64,000 nt of DNA from Kribbella sp. CA-293567 (GCF_027627575.1 NZ_CP114065.1:7130001-7194000); one strand, 5' to 3'; counted from the first letter of the stretch, positions 2,180 to 12,953 are shown. The notes: generated by a model not told the origin, from the sequence alone. A program made the numbers and translations.

Positions 2180-3133
2180 ATGGACACTGTGGAGCTGGGG
2201 CGTACGGGGTTGCGGATCAGTCGGCTGGGTCTCGGGCTCGCCTCGATCGGCGGGATGTTCGCGGCCGTCCCGGAGTCGGAGGCCGTCGCGACGATCGACC
2301 GTGCCTGGGAGCTCGGCGTCCGGCTGTTCGACACCGCACCGGTCTACGGCTACGGGCTGTCGGAGCAGCGCGCCGGGCTGGCGCTGCGCGGGAGACCGCG
2401 GGAGGAGTTCGTTCTCTGCAGCAAGGTCGGCCGGCTGATCGAGCCGGGCGGCCCGGACACCCAGCCGATCTGGGCCGAGCCACCGGCCGGTCTGGGACCC
2501 CGGCTCGACTACTCCTACAGCGCCGTCATCCGCTCGCTGGAGGACAGTCTCGGACGGCTGGGGATCGACCATCTCGACATCCTGCACATCCACGACCCTG
2601 ATCTCGACTTCGCCACCGCCTCCACCGAGGCCCTCCGGGCGTTGCAAGAGCTCCGGATGCGCGGGACGATCAGGGCGATCTCGCTCGGGGTCAACCACGC
2701 CGACGTCGCCGCACGCTTCCTGCGGGAGGTGGGTCCGGCGGGGCCGGACTGCATTCTGCTGGCCGGACGCTACACCTTGCTCGACCGGTCGGGAGCCGAG
2801 GAGCTGCTGCCGCTCTGCCGCTCGCTGGGGGTCGCGGTTCTGGCGGCAGGAGTCTTCCAGGGTGGTGTGCTCGCGGATGCTTCCGACGGCGCACCACACG
2901 GGTACGGCACAGTGCCGGCCGCTCTCGCCGCCCGGATCAGGGCGCTCCGCGAGCTGGCCGACCGGTACGACGTACCGCTGCTGGCCGCCGCTCTTCAGTT
3001 CCCGCTCGGCGACCCCGCGATACCGGCGGTGGTGGTCGGGGCCCGGAGCGCGGCGGAAGTGTCCGAACTCGTTGCCCTGCTGGAGCACGAGATTCCGGAG
3101 CGATTCTGGGCTGCCTACCGAGACGCTTTCTGA
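2180..3133 (+). CDS. Aldo/keto reductase
   Basis: A 317-residue NAD(P)H-dependent aldo/keto reductase with a TIM-barrel layout. The N-terminus VELGRTGLRISRLGLG is typical. The catalytic tetrad is visible: Asp51 and Tyr56 in FDTAPVYGYG, Lys82 in CSKVGR and His138 in HIHDPD. The motif arrangement and a cofactor-binding end with GARSAAEV resemble the D-threo-aldose/L-fucose dehydrogenase group, so a sugar or aldose substrate is possible, though not certain. It starts at ATG 2180 and its 3' end overlaps the convergent monooxygenase-domain gene by 19 bp. Confidence 0.9.
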   Translation: MDTVELGRTGLRISRLGLGLASIGGMFAAVPESEAVATIDRAWELGVRLFDTAPVYGYGLSEQRAGLALRGRPREEFVLCSKVGRLIEPGGPDTQPIWAEPPAGLGPRLDYSYSAVIRSLEDSLGRLGIDHLDILHIHDPDLDFATASTEALRALQELRMRGTIRAISLGVNHADVAARFLREVGPAGPDCILLAGRYTLLDRSGAEELLPLCRSLGVAVLAAGVFQGGVLADASDGAPHGYGTVPAALAARIRALRELADRYDVPLLAAALQFPLGDPAIPAVVVGARSAAEVSELVALLEHEIPERFWAAYRDAF

Positions 3134-3420
3134 ACCGCGGCGACGGTCCCTTCTTCGGCGCTGACCAGGGATTCGATCGCGGCGAAGAAGCGGGCGATGC
3201 CGGGCAGGTTGCCACCCTTCTCGCGGGACGCGGCGAAGTCTTCCGGGCTCTCCCACTCGACGATGTCCAGCCACTCGCCGGCCGGCAATCGGACCAGCTG
3301 GGCCGCGAGGAAACCGGCGCGGTCCGCGGCGAAGTCCGCCAGCATCTCCGGGCGGGCGGCCAGCAGTTCGGCCTCGTGGTCGGCGGCGACCTTGAAGCGG
3401 GTCAGTTCGATCGTGCTCAT
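3115..3420 (-). CDS. Antibiotic biosynthesis monooxygenase (ABM) domain protein
   Basis: A 101-residue single-domain protein with the dimeric alpha+beta barrel pattern of ABM/ferredoxin-like proteins: a beta-strand opening (IELTRFKVAADHEAELLAARPEM in part), a central GFLAAQLVRL strand and the WLDIVEWESPEDF strand-helix turn. Family members include small cofactor-free monooxygenases, heme-degrading enzymes and many of unknown role; no catalytic residue set can be assigned here. It is expressed convergently to the aldo/keto reductase, with overlapping stop regions. Confidence 0.75.
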   Translation of the reverse strand: MSTIELTRFKVAADHEAELLAARPEMLADFAADRAGFLAAQLVRLPAGEWLDIVEWESPEDFAASREKGGNLPGIARFFAAIESLVSAEEGTVAAVQKASR

Positions 3421-3496: not shown

Positions 3497-4354
3497 TCAG
3501 CTCCGGTACAGGCGGACGACGCCGTCGCCGGAGCGGACCGTCCAGCCGTCGGTGTGGTAGCCGACGACCTCGCCGGGCTGGGGCGTCCGTTCGCCCGCCG
3601 AGACCAGCTCGACGAGGCGGATCGGCTGCTTGATTCCGGCCACGATCACCCTGGTCTTGGCCTCCAGCACGTTCAGCGCCGCCGACTTCCGGACCAGGAC
3701 CGCGCCCGGATCGGTCAGCCGGAGCACCTGTTCCTCCGGCGTGAACATCGGCGCTTCCGAGGCCAGCGCGGGATCCTGCGGCGATCCCTGCTCCCCGGCG
3801 AACGCCCGGGCGGCTCCCTCCACCAGTACTTCACGCAGCATCTCGCGCCAGGCCTGGAAAATCGCCGGTCCGGCCAGGTCGGCCGGCAGCGGCCGCTCGC
3901 GCTGACTGAGGATCGCGCCGGTGTCGAACTCCGCCTCGGTCCGGTGCAGCGTCGCTCCGACCGTGGTCGCACCCTCGTAGACCAGCCGGACCGGGTTCGG
4001 CCCGCGACCGGCCGGGAGCGGTGACGGGTGCAGGTTCACAGCGCCGTACACCGGGATCTTCAGGATCTCCGCCGGGATCAGCCGCGGGAAGGCGGCCGAG
4101 ATCACCAGATCCGGCTCCAGTGCCGCGATGGCGGCGGCCGCCACGGTGCGGAGCTTGCCGGTCACCAGTACGTCGGCCGTGCGCGGCAGCTCCAGCAGGA
4201 ACGGCTTCGCGGCGGCGTCGTACCGATCGCCGGCCCCGGCCGGCGGCGTCACCACCAGCACGATCTCGTGGCCGTGCTCCTCGGCCCAGCCCGCGATATT
4301 GGCGTAGCCGGGCCAGAACGCGTTCATCGTGACGATCCGCATGGGATCAGTCAA
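3497..4354 (-). CDS. Formyltransferase-fold protein (Fmt/PurN-like), last gene of the MoxR-VWA operon
   Basis: A 285-residue homologue of 10-formyltetrahydrofolate-dependent transferases such as methionyl-tRNA formyltransferase. The catalytic triad is intact: Asn and His in NLHPSPLPAGRGPNP (about residues 108-122) and Asp in FDTGAIL (near 147). It is shorter than a housekeeping Fmt (about 310) and its N-terminus (RIVTMNAFWPGYANIAGW) differs, so a sugar, amino acid or peptide could be the acceptor. I chose the TTG at 4354 because TTGA overlaps the VWA stop with the same 4-nt geometry as the other four junctions of this operon. ATG at 4342 is the alternative. Operon membership suggests a link to the upstream ATPase system, which is inference. 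Confidence 0.8.
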   Translation of the reverse strand: MTDPMRIVTMNAFWPGYANIAGWAEEHGHEIVLVVTPPAGAGDRYDAAAKPFLLELPRTADVLVTGKLRTVAAAAIAALEPDLVISAAFPRLIPAEILKIPVYGAVNLHPSPLPAGRGPNPVRLVYEGATTVGATLHRTEAEFDTGAILSQRERPLPADLAGPAIFQAWREMLREVLVEGAARAFAGEQGSPQDPALASEAPMFTPEEQVLRLTDPGAVLVRKSAALNVLEAKTRVIVAGIKQPIRLVELVSAGERTPQPGEVVGYHTDGWTVRSGDGVVRLYRS

Positions 4355-5514
4355 TCACCCGCCACATTGGCCGCGGCCCACGCCGAGATGTCGTCGCGAC
4401 GGATCGCCGCCGCCATCAGGTCGGGGAACAGCTCCGGCGTACAGGCGAAGGTGGGGACTCCGAGGTCGGCCAGCGCGGCCGCGTTCTCCGCGTCGTACGA
4501 CGGAGTGCCCGAGTCGGACAGCGCGAGCAGCGCGATCAGCTGGACCCCGGACTCGACCAGGTGGCGGGCCCGGCGCAGGAGTTCCTCGCGGATGCCGCCC
4601 TCGTAGAGATCGCTGATCAGCACCATCACCGTCTCGCCCGGCCGGGTGATCAGCTGTTCGCAGTAGGCGACGGCGCGGTTGATGTCGGTGCCGCCGCCGA
4701 GCTGGGTGCCGAACAGGACGTCCACCGGGTCGTCCAGCTCGTCGGTGAGGTCGACGACAGCGGTGTCGAAGACGACGAGGCTGGTCCGCAGGGCGCGCAT
4801 CGATCCGAGGACGGCGCCGAACAGGCCGGCGTAGACGACGGACTCGGCCATCGAGCCGGACTGGTCGATCGCCAGGACGACGTCGCGCTGGACGGCGTGA
4901 TTGCGGCGGGCGTAGCCGACCAGACGGTCCGGCACGATCGTGCCCAGGGCCGGCGAGAAGTGCTTCAGGTTGGCGCGGATCGTGCGGTCCCAGTCGATGT
5001 CGGAGTGCCGCGGCCGGCCGGTGCGACCCGCTCGGTTCAGGGCCCCGCTCACCGCGGCGCGGGTGCGCTCGGCCAGGCGGGCCTCCAGCTCGGCCACCAC
5101 CCGGCCGACCACCTCGCGGGCGGTCTGCTTGGTTTCCTCGGGCATCACCTCGTTCAGCGCGAGCAAGGTGCTGACCAGGTGGACGTCGGGTTCGACGGCG
5201 TTCAGCAGCTCGGGCTCCATCAGCATCCGGGTGATGCCCAGCCGCTCGACCGCATCCCGCTGCATGACCTGGACGACCGTGCTCGGGAAGTACTGCCTGA
5301 TGTCGCCGAGCCAGCGCGCCACCCGGGGCGCCGACGAGCCCAGGCCGGCCGATCGCTTGGTGCCGGGCTCACCCCGCTCGGCGTCGTACAGGGCCGCGAG
5401 CGCCGCGTCGACAGAGCGATCGGCAGCAGACAGCGCCGTACCGGTCTCGGGGTCGGCTTCACTGCCGAGCACCATCCGCCAGCGCCGCAGGCGTTCGTCG
5501 TCGGGCATCGTCAC
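4351..5514 (-). CDS. VWA (CoxE-like) domain protein of the MoxR-VWA operon
   Basis: A 387-residue cytosolic protein. The first 200 residues are helical and unassigned; the last 180 form a von Willebrand factor A domain with a complete metal-ion adhesion site: D217-x-S219-x-S221 (AIDQSGS), Thr276 (GGGTD) and Asp302 (LISDLYEGG). VWA proteins of this type are the classical partners of MoxR ATPases, where the metal site is thought to hold an acidic ligand or client for remodelling. The GTG start overlaps the DUF5682 stop as GTGA, and its own stop overlaps the formyltransferase start. No signal peptide or membrane anchor, so it acts in the cytosol. Confidence 0.9.
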   Translation of the reverse strand: MTMPDDERLRRWRMVLGSEADPETGTALSAADRSVDAALAALYDAERGEPGTKRSAGLGSSAPRVARWLGDIRQYFPSTVVQVMQRDAVERLGITRMLMEPELLNAVEPDVHLVSTLLALNEVMPEETKQTAREVVGRVVAELEARLAERTRAAVSGALNRAGRTGRPRHSDIDWDRTIRANLKHFSPALGTIVPDRLVGYARRNHAVQRDVVLAIDQSGSMAESVVYAGLFGAVLGSMRALRTSLVVFDTAVVDLTDELDDPVDVLFGTQLGGGTDINRAVAYCEQLITRPGETVMVLISDLYEGGIREELLRRARHLVESGVQLIALLALSDSGTPSYDAENAAALADLGVPTFACTPELFPDLMAAAIRRDDISAWAAANVAGD

Positions 5515-7688
5515 ACCCCCAGCAGAAGCTTGACGACCGGCAGGACCGAGGCGGCCAGCAGCTGGTCGAGTTCGTTGTCATCGGCAAGGACCGCGGCGGC
5601 TGGATCGTCCAGCGCTCGGGCCCGCTCACCGATCGACCGTCGCTCCGGCGAGGCAAAGGTTCCGAACGTTCGGCGGAGCAGGGGTAGCGCCTCCAGGAAC
5701 GCCTCGTCGGGGATCGCGGCCAGCCAGGCGTCGACGAGAGTCAGCAGCCGTTCGTCGTGCACCAGCAGGAGTCCGCCGCCGGCCAGGAAGCCTTCGACGT
5801 ACCCCGCGGCGTCGGCGGTCGGCGTACCGGGAGAGAGGGCCCGTCCCAGCCGGAGCGCCACCTCGGCAGCCTCCAGCCGTGACGTGTCGAGCATCAAACG
5901 GGTCAGACGGCCCGCGATCACCGGCGGCACGGACGGCCGATCGCTCAAGCCCTGCAGCGTGTTGAGCCACTCGAGCCGCGCGGGCTCGGCCAGCAAGGCC
6001 GTCGCATCCTGCACGCCGTCGATCAGCTCGAGCACCGAAGCAGCCGCCTCCGGGTCGAGACCGTGAACGGTGCGGGCGAGACCGGCGCACACCCGCGACA
6101 CCATGCGTCCGGCCACCAGACCGAGTCCTTCTGCGGACGAGCCGCGCACATCGCCGTACCTGGCGGAACGCGCGAGAGCGGGCAGCGCCGCCATCAGATG
6201 CCCGACGTCCGCGTCCTTGGCGGCCCGGGTGTCGACGCCCTGCAACAAGGTCGGCAACGCCTCGGCGAGATCGGCCAGCAGCGAGCGTTCCAGCGCAAAG
6301 GTGATCTCGGCGAGGGTGGCGGAGTCCTCGGCCGCCTTGAGCATCGTCGTCGTCGCCGCGCCGAGCACGGTCGTCCCGTGGGCACCGGCAGCCACCAGGT
6401 CGACCTCCAGCCCGGGATCCCAGGCGAGCTTCCAGCTCTCCCGGAAGGTGCCCTGGTTCCGGCGTTCATCGGCGGTCGGCACACCCCAGTCGATGCCGAG
6501 GATCCGCAGCCGGTGCAGCAGCCGGGACTTCTCCAGGTCGTTCGGCTTCCGCAGATCCAGCTCGACCACCCGCTCGGCCGCGTCCCGTTTCAGCCGCAAC
6601 CGCCGAGCCTGCGCGGCGAGATCCGCAGCCACCGGTGCTTGCGGAGTCTCAGCCGGTACTGCGCCGAGCAACTCCCCGACGACCGCCTCGCGCGTCACCA
6701 GGTTGAGCAGTACGTCGTTGCCACCGCACATCACCGCGCGCGTCGCCTCGGTGACCTCGCTCAAGCCGGCCAGCGGGCGCTCCCGCAACGCGGCAAGGGC
6801 ATCGGCCAGCCGCACTGCCTCGATGACGTGAGCACTCGACACCGGCAGGTCCTCGGCCCGCAGTACGTGAGCGACCTTGGTCAGCCAGCGGGTGGTGATC
6901 TGGTCGGGCGCGGTGAAGAGATGGTGGTACCAGCCGGGTGAGGTGACGCCGGCGCCGTACCCGCTGGCCGTGGCCAGCCGGCCGTGTGTCCAGGGCACCC
7001 AGGTACAGGCGACCTTGCGTTTCGGCAAGCCCTTCAGGATCCGCTGGTCGTGCGTTGCCGGTGGCAACGGCGCTTGCAGGGCAGGGACATGCCAGGCGCC
7101 GCAGACCACGGCGATCCGCTCGAACCCCTCTTTGATTGCCTTGCGCAACGTCGTCCGCATAAAGGCCTCGCGCTGCGCCTCCCGCCCGGACGCCTCCTCA
7201 CCGCGGCGCAGTTCGGTCATCGCCTCCGCGATCACCGTGAACGGCTCGGCACCGTCGCGCCGATGCTCGATCACGTCGTCCCACCAGCGCTCGGGATCGT
7301 CGTACCCACCGGCCGCGGCCAGCGTCGCCAGCGGATCGGCCGACATTCCGCGCCGATCCTCCCGCCCGGAACTGCCGAACTGGTACGCCGCGGGCAGGTC
7401 GCAGAACCGCACCGGTACGCCGCTCGCCAGCGCGTGCGTGATCGCCTGCCATTCCGGACTGAACACCGCGAACGGCCAGAACGCGGCGCGGGTCGAGTCA
7501 TCGGCCGCATAGGCCAGCAGAGCCACCGGCGGCACCATCTGCGCGGAGGCGGCCAGCTCGACCACCTTGTCGGCCTCGGGCGGTCCCTCGATCAGCACGA
7601 TGTCGGGTTGCAGCTCCGCCAGCGCGGTCGCGAGCGCCCGGGCGGACCCGGGGCCGTGGTGCCTGATGCCGAAAAGGTGGACGGTCAT
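5511..7688 (-). CDS. DUF5682 family protein of the MoxR-VWA operon
   Basis: A 725-residue protein of the uncharacterised DUF5682 family. It opens with HLFGIRHHGPGSARAL, followed by DIVLIEGPPEAD (about 30-40) and later VVCGAWHVPALQ (about 195). A pairing of a His-rich first strand, an IEGP strand end and a G-x-W-H motif recalls the TraB/EreA/ChaN-like metallohydrolase fold, so a metal-dependent hydrolytic or ligand-binding role is possible (inference). The C-terminal two thirds are helical repeats without recognisable motif. The ATG overlaps the AAA ATPase stop (ATGA) and the stop overlaps the VWA start (GTGA). Confidence 0.85.
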   Translation of the reverse strand: MTVHLFGIRHHGPGSARALATALAELQPDIVLIEGPPEADKVVELAASAQMVPPVALLAYAADDSTRAAFWPFAVFSPEWQAITHALASGVPVRFCDLPAAYQFGSSGREDRRGMSADPLATLAAAGGYDDPERWWDDVIEHRRDGAEPFTVIAEAMTELRRGEEASGREAQREAFMRTTLRKAIKEGFERIAVVCGAWHVPALQAPLPPATHDQRILKGLPKRKVACTWVPWTHGRLATASGYGAGVTSPGWYHHLFTAPDQITTRWLTKVAHVLRAEDLPVSSAHVIEAVRLADALAALRERPLAGLSEVTEATRAVMCGGNDVLLNLVTREAVVGELLGAVPAETPQAPVAADLAAQARRLRLKRDAAERVVELDLRKPNDLEKSRLLHRLRILGIDWGVPTADERRNQGTFRESWKLAWDPGLEVDLVAAGAHGTTVLGAATTTMLKAAEDSATLAEITFALERSLLADLAEALPTLLQGVDTRAAKDADVGHLMAALPALARSARYGDVRGSSAEGLGLVAGRMVSRVCAGLARTVHGLDPEAAASVLELIDGVQDATALLAEPARLEWLNTLQGLSDRPSVPPVIAGRLTRLMLDTSRLEAAEVALRLGRALSPGTPTADAAGYVEGFLAGGGLLLVHDERLLTLVDAWLAAIPDEAFLEALPLLRRTFGTFASPERRSIGERARALDDPAAAVLADDNELDQLLAASVLPVVKLLLGV

Positions 7689-8773
7689 CCGGAGATGTCC
7701 CGGCAGGCCCGGTAGAAGTCGGCCCAGCCGTCGCGTTCGCGGACCACGGTCTCCAGGTACTCCGACCAGACCACGCGATCCGCCGACGGGTCCTTGACCA
7801 CGGCCCCGAGGATGCCGCCGGCCACGTCGTTCGAGCGCAGTACGCCGTCGCCGAAGTGCGTCGCCAGCGCGAGCCCACCGGTCACCACGCTGATCGCCTC
7901 GGCGGTCGACAGCGTTCCCGAGGGTGACTTGACCGCGGTCCGGCCGTCCTCGGTCCGCCCGGAGCGCAGCTCGCGGAACACGGTGACGACCCGGCGGATC
8001 TCCTCCACCGCGTCGTCCTGCTCCGGCAGTTCGAGCGAGGCGCCGAGCTGCGCGACCCGGCGGGAGACGATCGCGACCTCGTCCTCGGCGTCGTCGGGCA
8101 GCGGCAGGACGACCGTGTTGAACCGGCGCCGGAGCGCGCTGGACAGTTCGTTGACGCCCTTGTCGCGATCGTTGGCGGTGGCGATCACGTTGAATCCCTT
8201 GCGGGCCTGGACCTCGGTGCCGAGCTCGGAGATCGGCAGCGCCTTCTCGGACAGGATCGTGATCAGCGCGTCCTGTACGTCGGACGGCATCCGGGTCAGC
8301 TCCTCGATCCGGGCGATCTTCGCGTCGGCCATCGCCCGGAACACCGGGCTGGGCACGAGCGCTGCCTCACTCGGGCCCTGGGCGATCAACTGCGCGTAGT
8401 TCCAGCCGTAGCGAATCGACTCCTCGGCCGTGCCGGCGGTGCCCTGCACGAGCAGCGTCGAGTCCCCGCTGATCGCTGCCGCCAGGTGCTCGCTGACCCA
8501 CGTCTTCGCCGTTCCCGGTACGCCGAGCAGCAGCAACGCGCGATCCGTCGCGAGGGTGGCGACCGCGACCTCGACCAGCCGGCGCGGGCCGACGTACTTG
8601 GGGGTGATCTCGACGTCACCCGCCTTGCCGCCCAGCAGGTAGGTCACCACCGCGGCCGGTGACAGCTTCCACGCGGGTGGCCGGAGCCGGTCGTCGGTGG
8701 CTGCCAGCGCGGCCAGCTCCACGGCGTACTCGTCCTCGGCGTGCGGGCGCAGTACTTCAGGGGTGACGGTCAT
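7685..8773 (-). CDS. MoxR-type AAA+ ATPase
   Basis: A 362-residue AAA+ ATPase of the MoxR branch. Walker A is GVPGTAKT (residues 84-91). The Walker B region reads KIARIEELTR with Glu156-Glu157 where most relatives have Asp-Glu, a conservative change. Sensor 1 is ATAN (197-200) and the Arg-finger region is SSALRRRFN (210-218). MoxR ATPases form hexameric rings that remodel or activate client complexes together with VWA proteins; here the VWA gene lies one gene downstream. Start ATG overlaps the DUF5691 stop as ATGA. The core motor of this operon. Confidence 0.93.
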   Translation of the reverse strand: MTVTPEVLRPHAEDEYAVELAALAATDDRLRPPAWKLSPAAVVTYLLGGKAGDVEITPKYVGPRRLVEVAVATLATDRALLLLGVPGTAKTWVSEHLAAAISGDSTLLVQGTAGTAEESIRYGWNYAQLIAQGPSEAALVPSPVFRAMADAKIARIEELTRMPSDVQDALITILSEKALPISELGTEVQARKGFNVIATANDRDKGVNELSSALRRRFNTVVLPLPDDAEDEVAIVSRRVAQLGASLELPEQDDAVEEIRRVVTVFRELRSGRTEDGRTAVKSPSGTLSTAEAISVVTGGLALATHFGDGVLRSNDVAGGILGAVVKDPSADRVVWSEYLETVVRERDGWADFYRACRDISG

Positions 8774-10164
8774 GACAGCTCCTCGTACAGTTCACGGCGG
8801 AAGTTCAGCGTCTCCACCAGGCGTCGCCGCCAGGTGTCTTCCTCACCGGTCGGTTCGCGGGTGATCGGATGGTCCAGTACTTCGGCCGGTACGGCGCGCG
8901 CCGCGATGCTCGCCAGCCGCGCCGCCGTTCGCGCGGTGCCGGCCTTCGCCAGCTGGTCGAGGATGCTGGTGGCGAGCCCCGGCGGCCACGGAACCGGCAA
9001 CCCGCCGACCAGATCGGCGATGTCGACGCGGGTGCGCAGCAGCTCCACGGCCGGCACCCACTCGTCAGGTGGCAGGATCCGCAGCAGCTCGGCGACCCTG
9101 CCGCCGGTCCTGGCATTCGCGAGCAGCAGCGCCCGGGCCCACTCGGCCGAGCCTTCGCGGACGGCTGCCTGTGACCACGCGACCTGCAACACCTCGGGTG
9201 AGCAGCCTTCGACGTCGAGTTGGAGGTCGTCCAGCTCGAAGGTGGACAGCGGTGCTGCGGCGACCAGCTGCCGGAACCACCAAGCCCGCTTGCCGATTCC
9301 GTCCTGCGGCTGCGGGTCGATGCCGTCGCGCTCCATCGCCGGAGTGACTTCGGTCGGCAGGTCGACGGCAATCACGCCTTGGCTCACGATGAGATGCGAT
9401 CGGACGCGTTGGGCCATCCGCTCGCCGTACTGCGACCCGGGACTCCGCGCAAGCAGGCCGGCCGCGGCCCGGCGTACCTCCTTGGAGCGGTCGTCGAGGG
9501 CTTGCTCCAGGAACTCCTCGTCGGCCGCGGACAGGTTCTCGGTCAGCAGGCCGAGGAAGTCCAGCCGGGCCGGGGCCGGCTCGGTGGGCCAGACCTCTCG
9601 CAGCGCTTCCAGTGCTGCGGCCGGATCTGCCTGACGGCGGGCCCGCAGCCAGCTGCGGCGCTGGGTCGAGTTGCCGTGGGTCCAATGATCGTTGCCCTCG
9701 ACAACAGCTTCGTGGAGGAAGCGCCAGTCGGGGTTGAGATCCGCCAGCCAGCTCGCCCGGCGCCCCGCGGCTTTGACCACCAACGGCCGGTACTCCGCGC
9801 GACCGCGGGCGTAGTCGGCCAGAGCGGGGAGGTGCTCGGGAGGAACGCCCCAGCCCTTGGCATCAGCTGCCCGCAGCCATTCACCCAGAGCAGTGGTCTG
9901 GAAGCCGGTGAGCATCGCTGCGAGCCGGCGGATGGCAGCCGGCCTGGGAAGCGGCTGGTCCTCGCCGTGGGTGGACGGTAGTGGCGTCAGGCCTTCCAGC
10001 GGCGTACGGCCGGCTCGCTTGTAGAGGGTGGCCAGCGCTGCCGCGTCGAGGAGGTTGCCGTCGCCCAACTGCTCCTGGATCGCCGGTGGTAGATCGTCGA
10101 AACGTGCAGGTCTGCGCTCGGTGCCGAGAAGGGCCGAGCTGACCAGGCCGTCCCAGCCCCTCAT
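8770..10164 (-). CDS. DUF5691 family protein of the MoxR-VWA operon
   Basis: A 464-residue protein of the uncharacterised DUF5691 family, recognised by its N-terminal signature WDGLVSSALLGTERR. The rest is Leu/Ala-rich and alpha-helical with HEAT-like character (for example DRSKEVRRAAAGLLARSP), which suggests a scaffold or client-recognition role rather than an enzyme. The reading frame is open up to 10227, but I place the start at ATG 10164: the domain signature begins there and the ATG overlaps the SWIM stop as ATGA, as at the other junctions. Always examine it together with the SWIM and DUF5682 genes, its consistent neighbours here. Confidence 0.85.
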   Translation of the reverse strand: MRGWDGLVSSALLGTERRPARFDDLPPAIQEQLGDGNLLDAAALATLYKRAGRTPLEGLTPLPSTHGEDQPLPRPAAIRRLAAMLTGFQTTALGEWLRAADAKGWGVPPEHLPALADYARGRAEYRPLVVKAAGRRASWLADLNPDWRFLHEAVVEGNDHWTHGNSTQRRSWLRARRQADPAAALEALREVWPTEPAPARLDFLGLLTENLSAADEEFLEQALDDRSKEVRRAAAGLLARSPGSQYGERMAQRVRSHLIVSQGVIAVDLPTEVTPAMERDGIDPQPQDGIGKRAWWFRQLVAAAPLSTFELDDLQLDVEGCSPEVLQVAWSQAAVREGSAEWARALLLANARTGGRVAELLRILPPDEWVPAVELLRTRVDIADLVGGLPVPWPPGLATSILDQLAKAGTARTAARLASIAARAVPAEVLDHPITREPTGEEDTWRRRLVETLNFRRELYEELS

Positions 10165-11486
10165 GAGAGGACCACCGGACGGTCGCCGTGCCAGCAGGTC
10201 ATCGGCTTGAAGCCTGCCCGGTTCCACTCGCCGGCGACGGTGATCGGGTCGCCTGCGGAGACAGCGAGCAGCTGCCAGAGGTCTACCCCTGGCAGGACTT
10301 CCAGCGCGTCACCCGCGCTGTCGACGAAGGCCCACTGATCGCCGTTGCGGGCAGGGCGAACGTCCGCGAGCACCAGTGGCCAGCGCTCGTTCCAAGGATC
10401 GGCTGCCAGCGATTCGACGTACGAGGCGAGGGCCTGTTTGGCGTTGAGGCCGCCTGGGCGCGGGGCAGGGAGACGGTGCGCCGTCTGGGTCAGGAGGGCC
10501 CGCATCGGCAGGGCACCCGGGTAGTAGGAGAGCACGGCCGGCACCAGCTCTCCGGGACGGGCCGGGAGCGGGTCAAGTTGGCGGCCGCCGGCAGCGAAGT
10601 TGAGGATCAGGGCCAGGCGTCCGGTGCTGGAGCCGCGGAGCCAGAGGCGTCGTACGGTCAGGTGGTCGTCGGGCTCGATCACCCGGCCGAGCACCAGCCA
10701 GTCGTCCTCGACCTTCTCTCCCTCGGCCAGCACACGGGCGGTCTCGACGGTCCAGCCGATTCGCGACTGCACAGTGTCGGCCAGCCTCGGTGGGATTTCA
10801 CCGAGCCGAGCGTGGGCCGAGACGATGAGGTGGATCAGGGAGAGCTCTTCGAGCAGCTCGCCGGGCCAGCCGTGACCGCGGCCGACGACGGCGGCGGCCC
10901 GGCGTACGGCGCCTGCTACGCCGGGAGCCTGGGCGTCGACCATCCGCGCGGCCAGACGACTCAGCTCGCCGTAACCGCGCTGCTCGAAACCGCCGAGGCC
11001 GCGGCGTACCTGGTCGTCGAGCCAGCTCTGCAACTCGGCCATGCCTGCCGACACCCGGTCAGCTCGGCGCGTCACCCGCTGCTGAGCCGCCAGCGGATCG
11101 GCCACCTCGCCGGGCTTCCGCTCTGCCTTCTCAGCCGACTTCTCGGCCCGGGACGCCCGATCCTCCAGCCAGCTGGAGGCCCACTCGGCCTCGGCCCTTT
11201 CCGGTACCTGGCCGACGGCGGCGAGCAGCATCAGCGCGAGTGCGTGCTTGCAGGGGAACTTCCTGCTCGGGCACGAACACCTGAACGCCGGGCCGCTCCG
11301 GTCGACGACGGTCTGGTACGGCTTCTTGCCGCTCCCCTGGCACAGGCCCCACAGCGCACGCTCGGAGCTGCCGATCTCCGACCACCGCTGCGGCCGGGCC
11401 AGCCCTTGGGCAGCCTTGGCCGACGCGGCATCGGGCGCCATCGCCAGCACCTGCTCCACGTCCCAGCCCGCCACCGCACCCCCCAC
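10161..11486 (-). CDS. SWIM zinc-finger protein, first gene of the MoxR-VWA operon
   Basis: A 441-residue protein with a SWIM zinc finger: Cys70, Cys72, Cys79 and His81 in CSCPSRKFPCKH, matching the CxCx(n)CxH pattern. SWIM domains bind DNA or protein. The finger is followed by a charged helical linker (about 100-135) and a C-terminal region without known motif that is rich in WPLVL and WAFVDSAGD strands. It leads the six-gene operon; a promoter must lie in the 192-bp gap before glyA, where a dispersed palindromic element also sits. Start is GTG 11486; GTG 11474 is an alternative. Confidence 0.88.
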   Translation of the reverse strand: MGGAVAGWDVEQVLAMAPDAASAKAAQGLARPQRWSEIGSSERALWGLCQGSGKKPYQTVVDRSGPAFRCSCPSRKFPCKHALALMLLAAVGQVPERAEAEWASSWLEDRASRAEKSAEKAERKPGEVADPLAAQQRVTRRADRVSAGMAELQSWLDDQVRRGLGGFEQRGYGELSRLAARMVDAQAPGVAGAVRRAAAVVGRGHGWPGELLEELSLIHLIVSAHARLGEIPPRLADTVQSRIGWTVETARVLAEGEKVEDDWLVLGRVIEPDDHLTVRRLWLRGSSTGRLALILNFAAGGRQLDPLPARPGELVPAVLSYYPGALPMRALLTQTAHRLPAPRPGGLNAKQALASYVESLAADPWNERWPLVLADVRPARNGDQWAFVDSAGDALEVLPGVDLWQLLAVSAGDPITVAGEWNRAGFKPMTCWHGDRPVVLS

Positions 11487-11678: not shown

Positions 11679-12953
11679 TCAGCCCAGCGAGGCGTAGAGC
11701 GGATGGGCGGCAGCCAGTGCGCTGACCGCTTGCCCCAGTACGGCGGCGCGGCGGTCGTCGAAGCCGGGGAGCAGCGCCCGGGCGATGATCTCGGCGACCT
11801 CCTCGAAGGCCGGCTCACCGAAGCCACGGCTGGCCAGGGCCGGTGTCCCGATCCGCAGGCCCGAGGTGACCATCGGCGGCCGAGGGTCGAACGGCACCGC
11901 GTTGCGGTTCACCGTGATGCCGATCTGGTGCAGCCGGTCCTCTGCCTGCCGGCCGTCGAGTTCCGAGTCGCGCAGGTCGGCCAGGACGAGGTGCACGTCG
12001 GTGCCGCCGGAGACGACCGCGACGCCGGCCTGCTCGAGATCGTCGGCCAGCAGGCGATCGGCGAGGATCCTGGCGCCCGCCAGCGAGCGCTTCTGCCGCT
12101 CGCGGAACTCCGGGCTCGCCGCCAGCTTGAAGCCGACCGCCTTGGCGGCGATGACATGCTCCAGCGGCCCGCCCTGCTGGCCGGGGAAGACCGAGCTGTT
12201 GACCTTCTTGGCCAGGTCGGCGTCGTTGGTCAGGATCACCCCACCGCGCGGACCGCCGAGCGTCTTGTGGGTGGTGGTCGTGGTGACGTGCGCGTAGGGC
12301 ACCGGGTTCGGGTGTTCACCAGCCGCGACGAGTCCGGCGAAGTGCGCCATGTCGACCATCAGGTACGCCGAGACGGAGTCCGCGATCCGGCGGAACTCCG
12401 CGAAGTCCAGCACCCGCGGATACGCCGACCAGCCCGCCACGATCAGGGCCGGCTGGTGCTCCTTCGCGAGCCGCTCGACCTCGTCCATGTCGACCCGATG
12501 GTCGTCGGCGCGCACGTGGTAGGGCACCACGTCGTACAGGCGGCCGGAGAAGTTGAGCCGCATGCCGTGGGTGAGGTGGCCGCCATGGGCGAGGTCGAGG
12601 CCCATGATCGTCTGCCCGGGCTGGAGCAGCGCGCTCATCACCGCGGCGTTGGCGGAGGCACCGGAGTGCGGCTGGACATTGGCGAAACCGGCGCCGAACA
12701 ACTCCTTCACCCGGTCCTGGGCGAGGCGTTCGATCACGTCGATGTGCTCGCAGCCGCCGTAGTACCGGCGGCCGGGGTAGCCCTCGGCGTACTTGTTGGT
12801 GGCCACCGAGCCCTGGGCCTGGATCACCGCGAGCGGCGCGAAGTTCTCCGAGGCGATCATCTCCAGCGTGCTCTGCTGGCGGCCGAGCTCGGCCGCCAGC
12901 GCGGCGGCGATCTCGGGGTCGAACTCGGTGAGTGGCGTCTCCAGCACGATCAC
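11679..12953 (-). CDS. glyA: Serine hydroxymethyltransferase
   Basis: A 424-residue cytosolic PLP enzyme interconverting serine and glycine with tetrahydrofolate. Diagnostic sequences include [11 protein letters not shown] near the N-terminus, [18 protein letters not shown], the SGASANAAV stretch and the PLP-lysine motif [14 protein letters not shown] (Lys near residue 230). Length is normal. The GTG start overlaps the gcvH stop (GTGA), so glyA is translationally coupled to gcvH and shares its glycine riboswitch. This links glycine cleavage and glycine/serine exchange in one glycine-responsive unit. Confidence 0.97.

Follow-up and report, generated by a model that had tools for sequence, protein, structure and literature searches.

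The DUF5682 protein encoded in a conserved five-gene locus of Kribbella sp. CA-293567 carries an N-terminal domain that looks like the TraB/TIKI family, judged by its predicted fold and by invariant sequence motifs, and this recognition is the main new result of the present analysis. The locus lies in the window, the whole stretch of 64,000 nucleotides that was analysed, and its genes encode a SWIM zinc-finger protein, a DUF5691 protein, a MoxR ATPase, the DUF5682 protein and a VWA protein. This five-gene system is real and widespread across phyla, and its MoxR, DUF5682, VWA and SWIM components have counterparts in yehLMPQ of Escherichia coli. In this system an ATP-powered ring probably acts on a partner whose domain resembles a protease (TraB/TIKI type), as suggested by structural models and by analogy with studied MoxR-VWA pairs.

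Organization of the locus and its conservation

The genes occupy window positions 3497-11486 on the minus strand, with the order SWIM, DUF5691, MoxR, DUF5682 and VWA running from 11486 to 4351 and a formyltransferase gene after them. The first gene (10161-11486) encodes a SWIM protein of 441 aa (PF04434, E 6e-6), a conserved neighbour in the survey loci, whose zinc ligands CSCPSRKFPCKH (11244-11279) are intact. It is followed by genes for a DUF5691 alpha-solenoid protein of 464 aa (8770-10164, ATG start at 10164; PF18944, 4e-117, and structural model), a MoxR AAA+ ATPase of 362 aa (7685-8773; AAA_5/MoxR PF07728, 2e-37), a DUF5682 protein of 725 aa (5511-7688; PF18934, 3e-267) and a CoxE-type VWA protein (4351-5514; VWA_CoxE PF05762, 8e-54). 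The formyltransferase matches Formyl_trans_N (PF00551, 3e-19). The window DUF5682 is 84-86% identical to Kribbella homologues, its nearest named relatives.

Five consecutive 4-nt stop/start overlaps had been described in the first-pass annotation. The three ATGA overlaps at the SWIM/DUF5691, DUF5691/MoxR and MoxR/DUF5682 junctions are certain, whereas GTGA (DUF5682/VWA) and TTGA (VWA/formyltransferase) hinge on the choice of a GTG or TTG start. Alternative ATG starts are found 2 nt past the upstream stop for VWA (5508, in place of GTG 5514) and 8 nt past it for the formyltransferase (4342), and these ATG starts are likelier; both junctions are tight with either choice. The VWA/formyltransferase overlap is not conserved, because the open frame of the formyltransferase in a relative (G036) begins after the VWA stop. 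A scan for promoters and terminators gave nothing informative at this G+C. The same annotation had proposed a six-gene operon, of which the genes, their order and the five-family set stand. The formyltransferase was rejected as a sixth member and is regarded as a passenger: it adjoins the operon in 5 of 37 Kribbella genomes and lies beside the VWA gene in none of 80 relatives' loci. Downstream of it, an ABM monooxygenase gene is located at 3115-3420 (minus strand), and a relative of this gene follows the VWA gene within about 600 bases in five of seven other Kribbella loci. A serine hydroxymethyltransferase gene lies upstream of the operon (11679-12953, minus strand); a search of other Kribbella loci gave no match for it.

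A conservation survey of the neighbourhood, which had been suggested as a check, was carried out on 95 loci, comprising 80 from a species-genome collection together with plasmid, E. coli, phage-record and window loci. All five genes keep one order in 63 of the 95, and in 15 more the SWIM-DUF5691 pair is divergently transcribed; since the loci were picked by a DUF5682 match, these counts describe the surroundings of DUF5682 and not random genomes. The set is found with the same order in five phyla (Actinomycetota, Cyanobacteriota, Bacteroidota, Deinococcota and Pseudomonadota), and it belongs to the core in Kribbella (37/37 genomes). Some copies are located on plasmids. We call the arrangement of the window type A. 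In type B, DUF4132 and YehQ-like SWIM genes surround MoxR-DUF5682-VWA; this type occurs in E. coli, Iodobacter, Agrobacterium and four Actinomycetota genomes, one of which is a Kribbella that also carries type A. Type C, from Actinomycetota (L181-L184), is a distant VWA-MoxR-DUF5682 set in which VWA has a long N-terminal extension; in L181, large open reading frames without a Pfam family are found beside it.

Several loci show individual features. In Fusobacterium, a 637-aa protein without any Pfam family over the cut-off takes the DUF5691 position (L065:4941-6854, plus strand). TnpB-like frames separate MoxR from DUF5682 in Kribbella steppae (L074:8700-9995, minus strand) and in Nonomuraea soli (L118:8665-10356, minus strand), apparently as independent insertions at the same operon junction. 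One record filed as phage, an 'UNVERIFIED' faecal scaffold (L070, MT835988.1), carries MoxR-DUF5682-VWA and may be bacterial DNA.

Natural fusions are observed at two places of the system. SWIM and DUF5691 share one open frame in 11 loci (L062, L071, L087, L105, L112, L115, L117, L132, L136, L143 and L147), a list that leaves out other loci flagged by the script in which the two genes are in different frames. DUF5682 and VWA are joined in a single protein in L069, L174, L176, L178 and L179. These fusions point to two contacting modules. Furthermore, among 296 genomes of the host phylum, all 18 that carry DUF5691 above the cut-off are among the 21 with DUF5682 (hypergeometric P ~5e-26, ignoring phylogeny).

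The DUF5682 and SWIM-DUF5691 proteins

The structural model of DUF5682 (mean pLDDT 88.8) consists of an alpha/beta N-domain and a long helical C-terminal part that forms an alpha-solenoid. Residues 1-213 of the model match chain 7w5z_E (VIA Z 9.1, rmsd 5.2, 182 residues), which carries the name 'TraB family protein'; a TraB-family subunit has been described in ciliate complex IV (PMC10060162). In the viral structure library BFVD, the best match again belongs to the TraB family (probability 1.00, E 2.8e-3). A Foldseek search of the PDB with full DUF5682 gave no match below E 0.001, because the C-terminal solenoid dominates. No match was found in a PDB sequence search with DUF5682, and YbaP gave no meaningful match against the PDB.

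Two GX2H motifs and a conserved glutamate are found in DUF5682. The first motif is GIRH (G7-H10, 7659-7670) and the second is GAWH (G197-H200, 7089-7100), with H10, E34, G197 and H200 invariant in 94/94 proteins and G7 in 93/94. H10, E34, E79, E174 and H200 are invariant across phyla. Such a pair of motifs with a conserved glutamate reportedly marks the TIKI/TraB family, a definition said to go back to Bazan et al. in 2013. The direct link between the sequences is modest: hhalign of DUF5682 against TraB proteins gives probability 74 and E 2.8e-5 over just 34 columns around motif 1. The N-domain resembles the TIKI/TraB/PrgY family in predicted fold and in motifs, but in contrast to that family it continues into a long alpha-solenoid and goes together with a MoxR-VWA pair, and its peptidase activity is putative; several TraB-family members are themselves called potential metalloproteases (PMC12329661). 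We regard it as a putative metallopeptidase domain that looks TraB/TIKI-like, with the neighbouring erythromycin esterase family staying a candidate. The earlier description of DUF5682 as metallohydrolase-like agrees with this putative assignment.

The predicted structure of DUF5691 is an all-helical solenoid, which is consistent with the scaffold role proposed for it before. The natural SWIM-DUF5691 fusion of L112 was modelled at 92.7 and shows a zinc-finger and beta-rich part followed by a helical solenoid.

The MoxR-VWA pair and the E. coli counterpart

The earlier annotation had read the locus as one system, and the locus survey bears this out for a conserved set of five families with the MoxR-VWA pair at its centre. 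Walker, MIDAS and SWIM residues had all been taken as intact. This holds for the P-loop, the MIDAS and the SWIM ligands, but at Walker B the acidic residues read EE in place of DE (8300-8305), invariant in 93/93 MoxR proteins examined. The P-loop has the form GxPGTAK[TS] in all 93, with GVPGTAKT in the window (8501-8524). The MIDAS motifs of the window VWA read DQSGS...GGGTD...ISDL, with DQSGS at 4852-4866. Beyond the VWA profile, the C-terminal extension in the survey loci has a median of 7 and a maximum of 22 aa.

The nearest MoxR relatives with solved structures are NorQ and Midasin. Work on NorQD describes a VWA finger that reaches into the pore of NorQ and a MIDAS site that is likely to bind the target; iron insertion is proposed to follow from a twisting of the adaptor driven by ATP turnover (PMC13036017, PMC9976466). 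The window system shares with NorQ-NorD and CbbQ-CbbO a MoxR AAA+ ATPase and a MIDAS-bearing VWA partner. However, the targets of those machines are nitric oxide reductase and Rubisco, while the adjacent partner here is a predicted TraB-fold protein, and the Walker B EE pair also sets the window MoxR apart from them. No CO dehydrogenase genes adjoin the locus as would be expected of a CoxD-CoxE pair; its flanks are serine hydroxymethyltransferase, formyltransferase and ABM monooxygenase.

Seven subfamilies of MoxR ATPases are distinguished, one of them named after YehL (PMC3893208). In E. coli K-12, yehL, yehM, yehP and yehQ in a row encode MoxR, DUF5682, VWA_CoxE and SWIM proteins, with yehI (DUF4132; L002:2280-5912, plus strand) upstream. 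The window MoxR shares 42% identity with YehL, DUF5682 29% with YehM and VWA 39% with YehP. Over 355 columns, the match of MoxR to YehL (E 2e-79) identifies an orthologue, and DUF5682, CoxE-type VWA and SWIM genes adjoin MoxR as in the YehL type. Both systems thus share the MoxR-DUF5682-VWA core in the same order and a SWIM protein. They differ in that yehQ stands last and its product has two SWIM-like motifs, whereas the SWIM gene of the window stands first, and in that YehI holds the slot of the window DUF5691. DUF4132 is a trait of type B and does not define the subfamily. A profile comparison of YehQ, built on only three YehQ rows, found no relation to the window SWIM or DUF5691 protein. 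Type B loci of other organisms also come with DUF4132 genes, and yehI is therefore probably part of the yeh system. Of 5426 complete E. coli genomes, 5301 (97.7%) contain yehLMPQ DNA, and in 5162 of these a single location covers 80% or more of the query. The literature found on yehLMPQ function consists of genome reports and a butanol-tolerance study that lists yehQ.

Possible mechanism and alternative readings

As the best model, held tentatively and with somewhat less than even confidence, we favour a housekeeping or stress-type remodelling machine of the YehL type in which DUF5682 is the dedicated enzymatic partner of the MoxR-VWA pair. MoxR would form an ATP-driven ring whose pore would receive a finger of the VWA protein, on the pattern of NorD and NorQ. 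The VWA protein would hold the client via its MIDAS site and may link MoxR to DUF5682, by analogy with NorQD and in keeping with the VWA-DUF5682 fusions. The force generated could remodel, metallate or open DUF5682, a putative metallohydrolase and most likely a peptidase, and the SWIM-DUF5691 module may recognise or present the substrate. The Walker B EE pair is unusual and weighs against this model.

Several alternatives concern the role of DUF5682. As with NorQD, CoxDE and RavA-ViaA, the locus could encode a chaperone that inserts a cofactor into a metalloenzyme whose gene lies elsewhere, with DUF5682 as an adaptor or regulator and not the client. We consider this a real but minority possibility. 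In its favour, metal-dependent or respiratory enzymes are the targets of those MoxR-VWA pairs that have been studied (PMC13036017, PMC9976466, PMC3893208), and the window VWA is of the CoxE type. Against it, the survey loci show no conserved metalloenzyme gene next to the operon; the conserved fifth family is DUF5682, which retains an invariant putative metal site. Going further than the remodelling machine, a new ATP-dependent proteolytic machine, in which the MoxR ring and VWA would gate a TraB/TIKI-fold metallopeptidase and SWIM-solenoid proteins would choose the substrates, seems rather doubtful. It is unlikely that DUF5682 is a catalytically inactive TraB-fold scaffold in a machine that only assembles or disassembles complexes. 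Much of the protein is indeed solenoid and the activity of several TraB-fold members is unproven (PMC12329661), but the five invariant histidine and glutamate residues are hard to square with scaffolding alone. That the five genes are mere neighbours without a shared function is most improbable. An interaction of their products is predicted, and against the reading as mere neighbours stand the order kept across phyla, the two kinds of gene fusion and the strict co-occurrence of DUF5691 with DUF5682.

A stress, quality-control or conflict role had been considered before, and its conflict part, a phage-defence system in which DUF5682 would be the effector, akin to the MoxR-vWA ternary systems, is quite unlikely and disfavoured here. 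The locus and the ternary systems share a MoxR-vWA pair with further components, such pairs occur in predicted conflict systems, and the P-loop resembles the GXXXTAKS form (Kaur et al. 2020, PMC7159879); in addition, core genes are able to hold defence roles and plasmid-borne copies exist. Phage defence is nevertheless disfavoured because the locus is core in both Kribbella and E. coli, and no relatives of it were found in 2.9 million viral contigs. PADLOC returned only marginal matches (HEAT-ARM_XIII 2.8e-4, IetA 0.007) and no clear defence model. Variable effectors are lacking as well, since the VWA length is constant and no effector domain is fused to VWA. The third component of the ternary systems is likewise missing: no VMAP, iSTAND, FtsH or beta-propeller Pfam domain is found in the five proteins, and the bpMoxR match is below its cut-off.

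The literature searched yielded no paper that mentions DUF5682 or DUF5691 by name. The present comparison assigns DUF5691 and DUF4132 to the same slot in the YehL-type system. Together with the TraB/TIKI-like appearance of DUF5682 and the core status of the genes in E. coli, this makes the function testable in K-12. If the hydrolase model is true, the system would represent a class of ATP-driven protein machine absent from the papers found; if the proteolytic reading were true, most E. coli and many other bacteria would possess such a machine.
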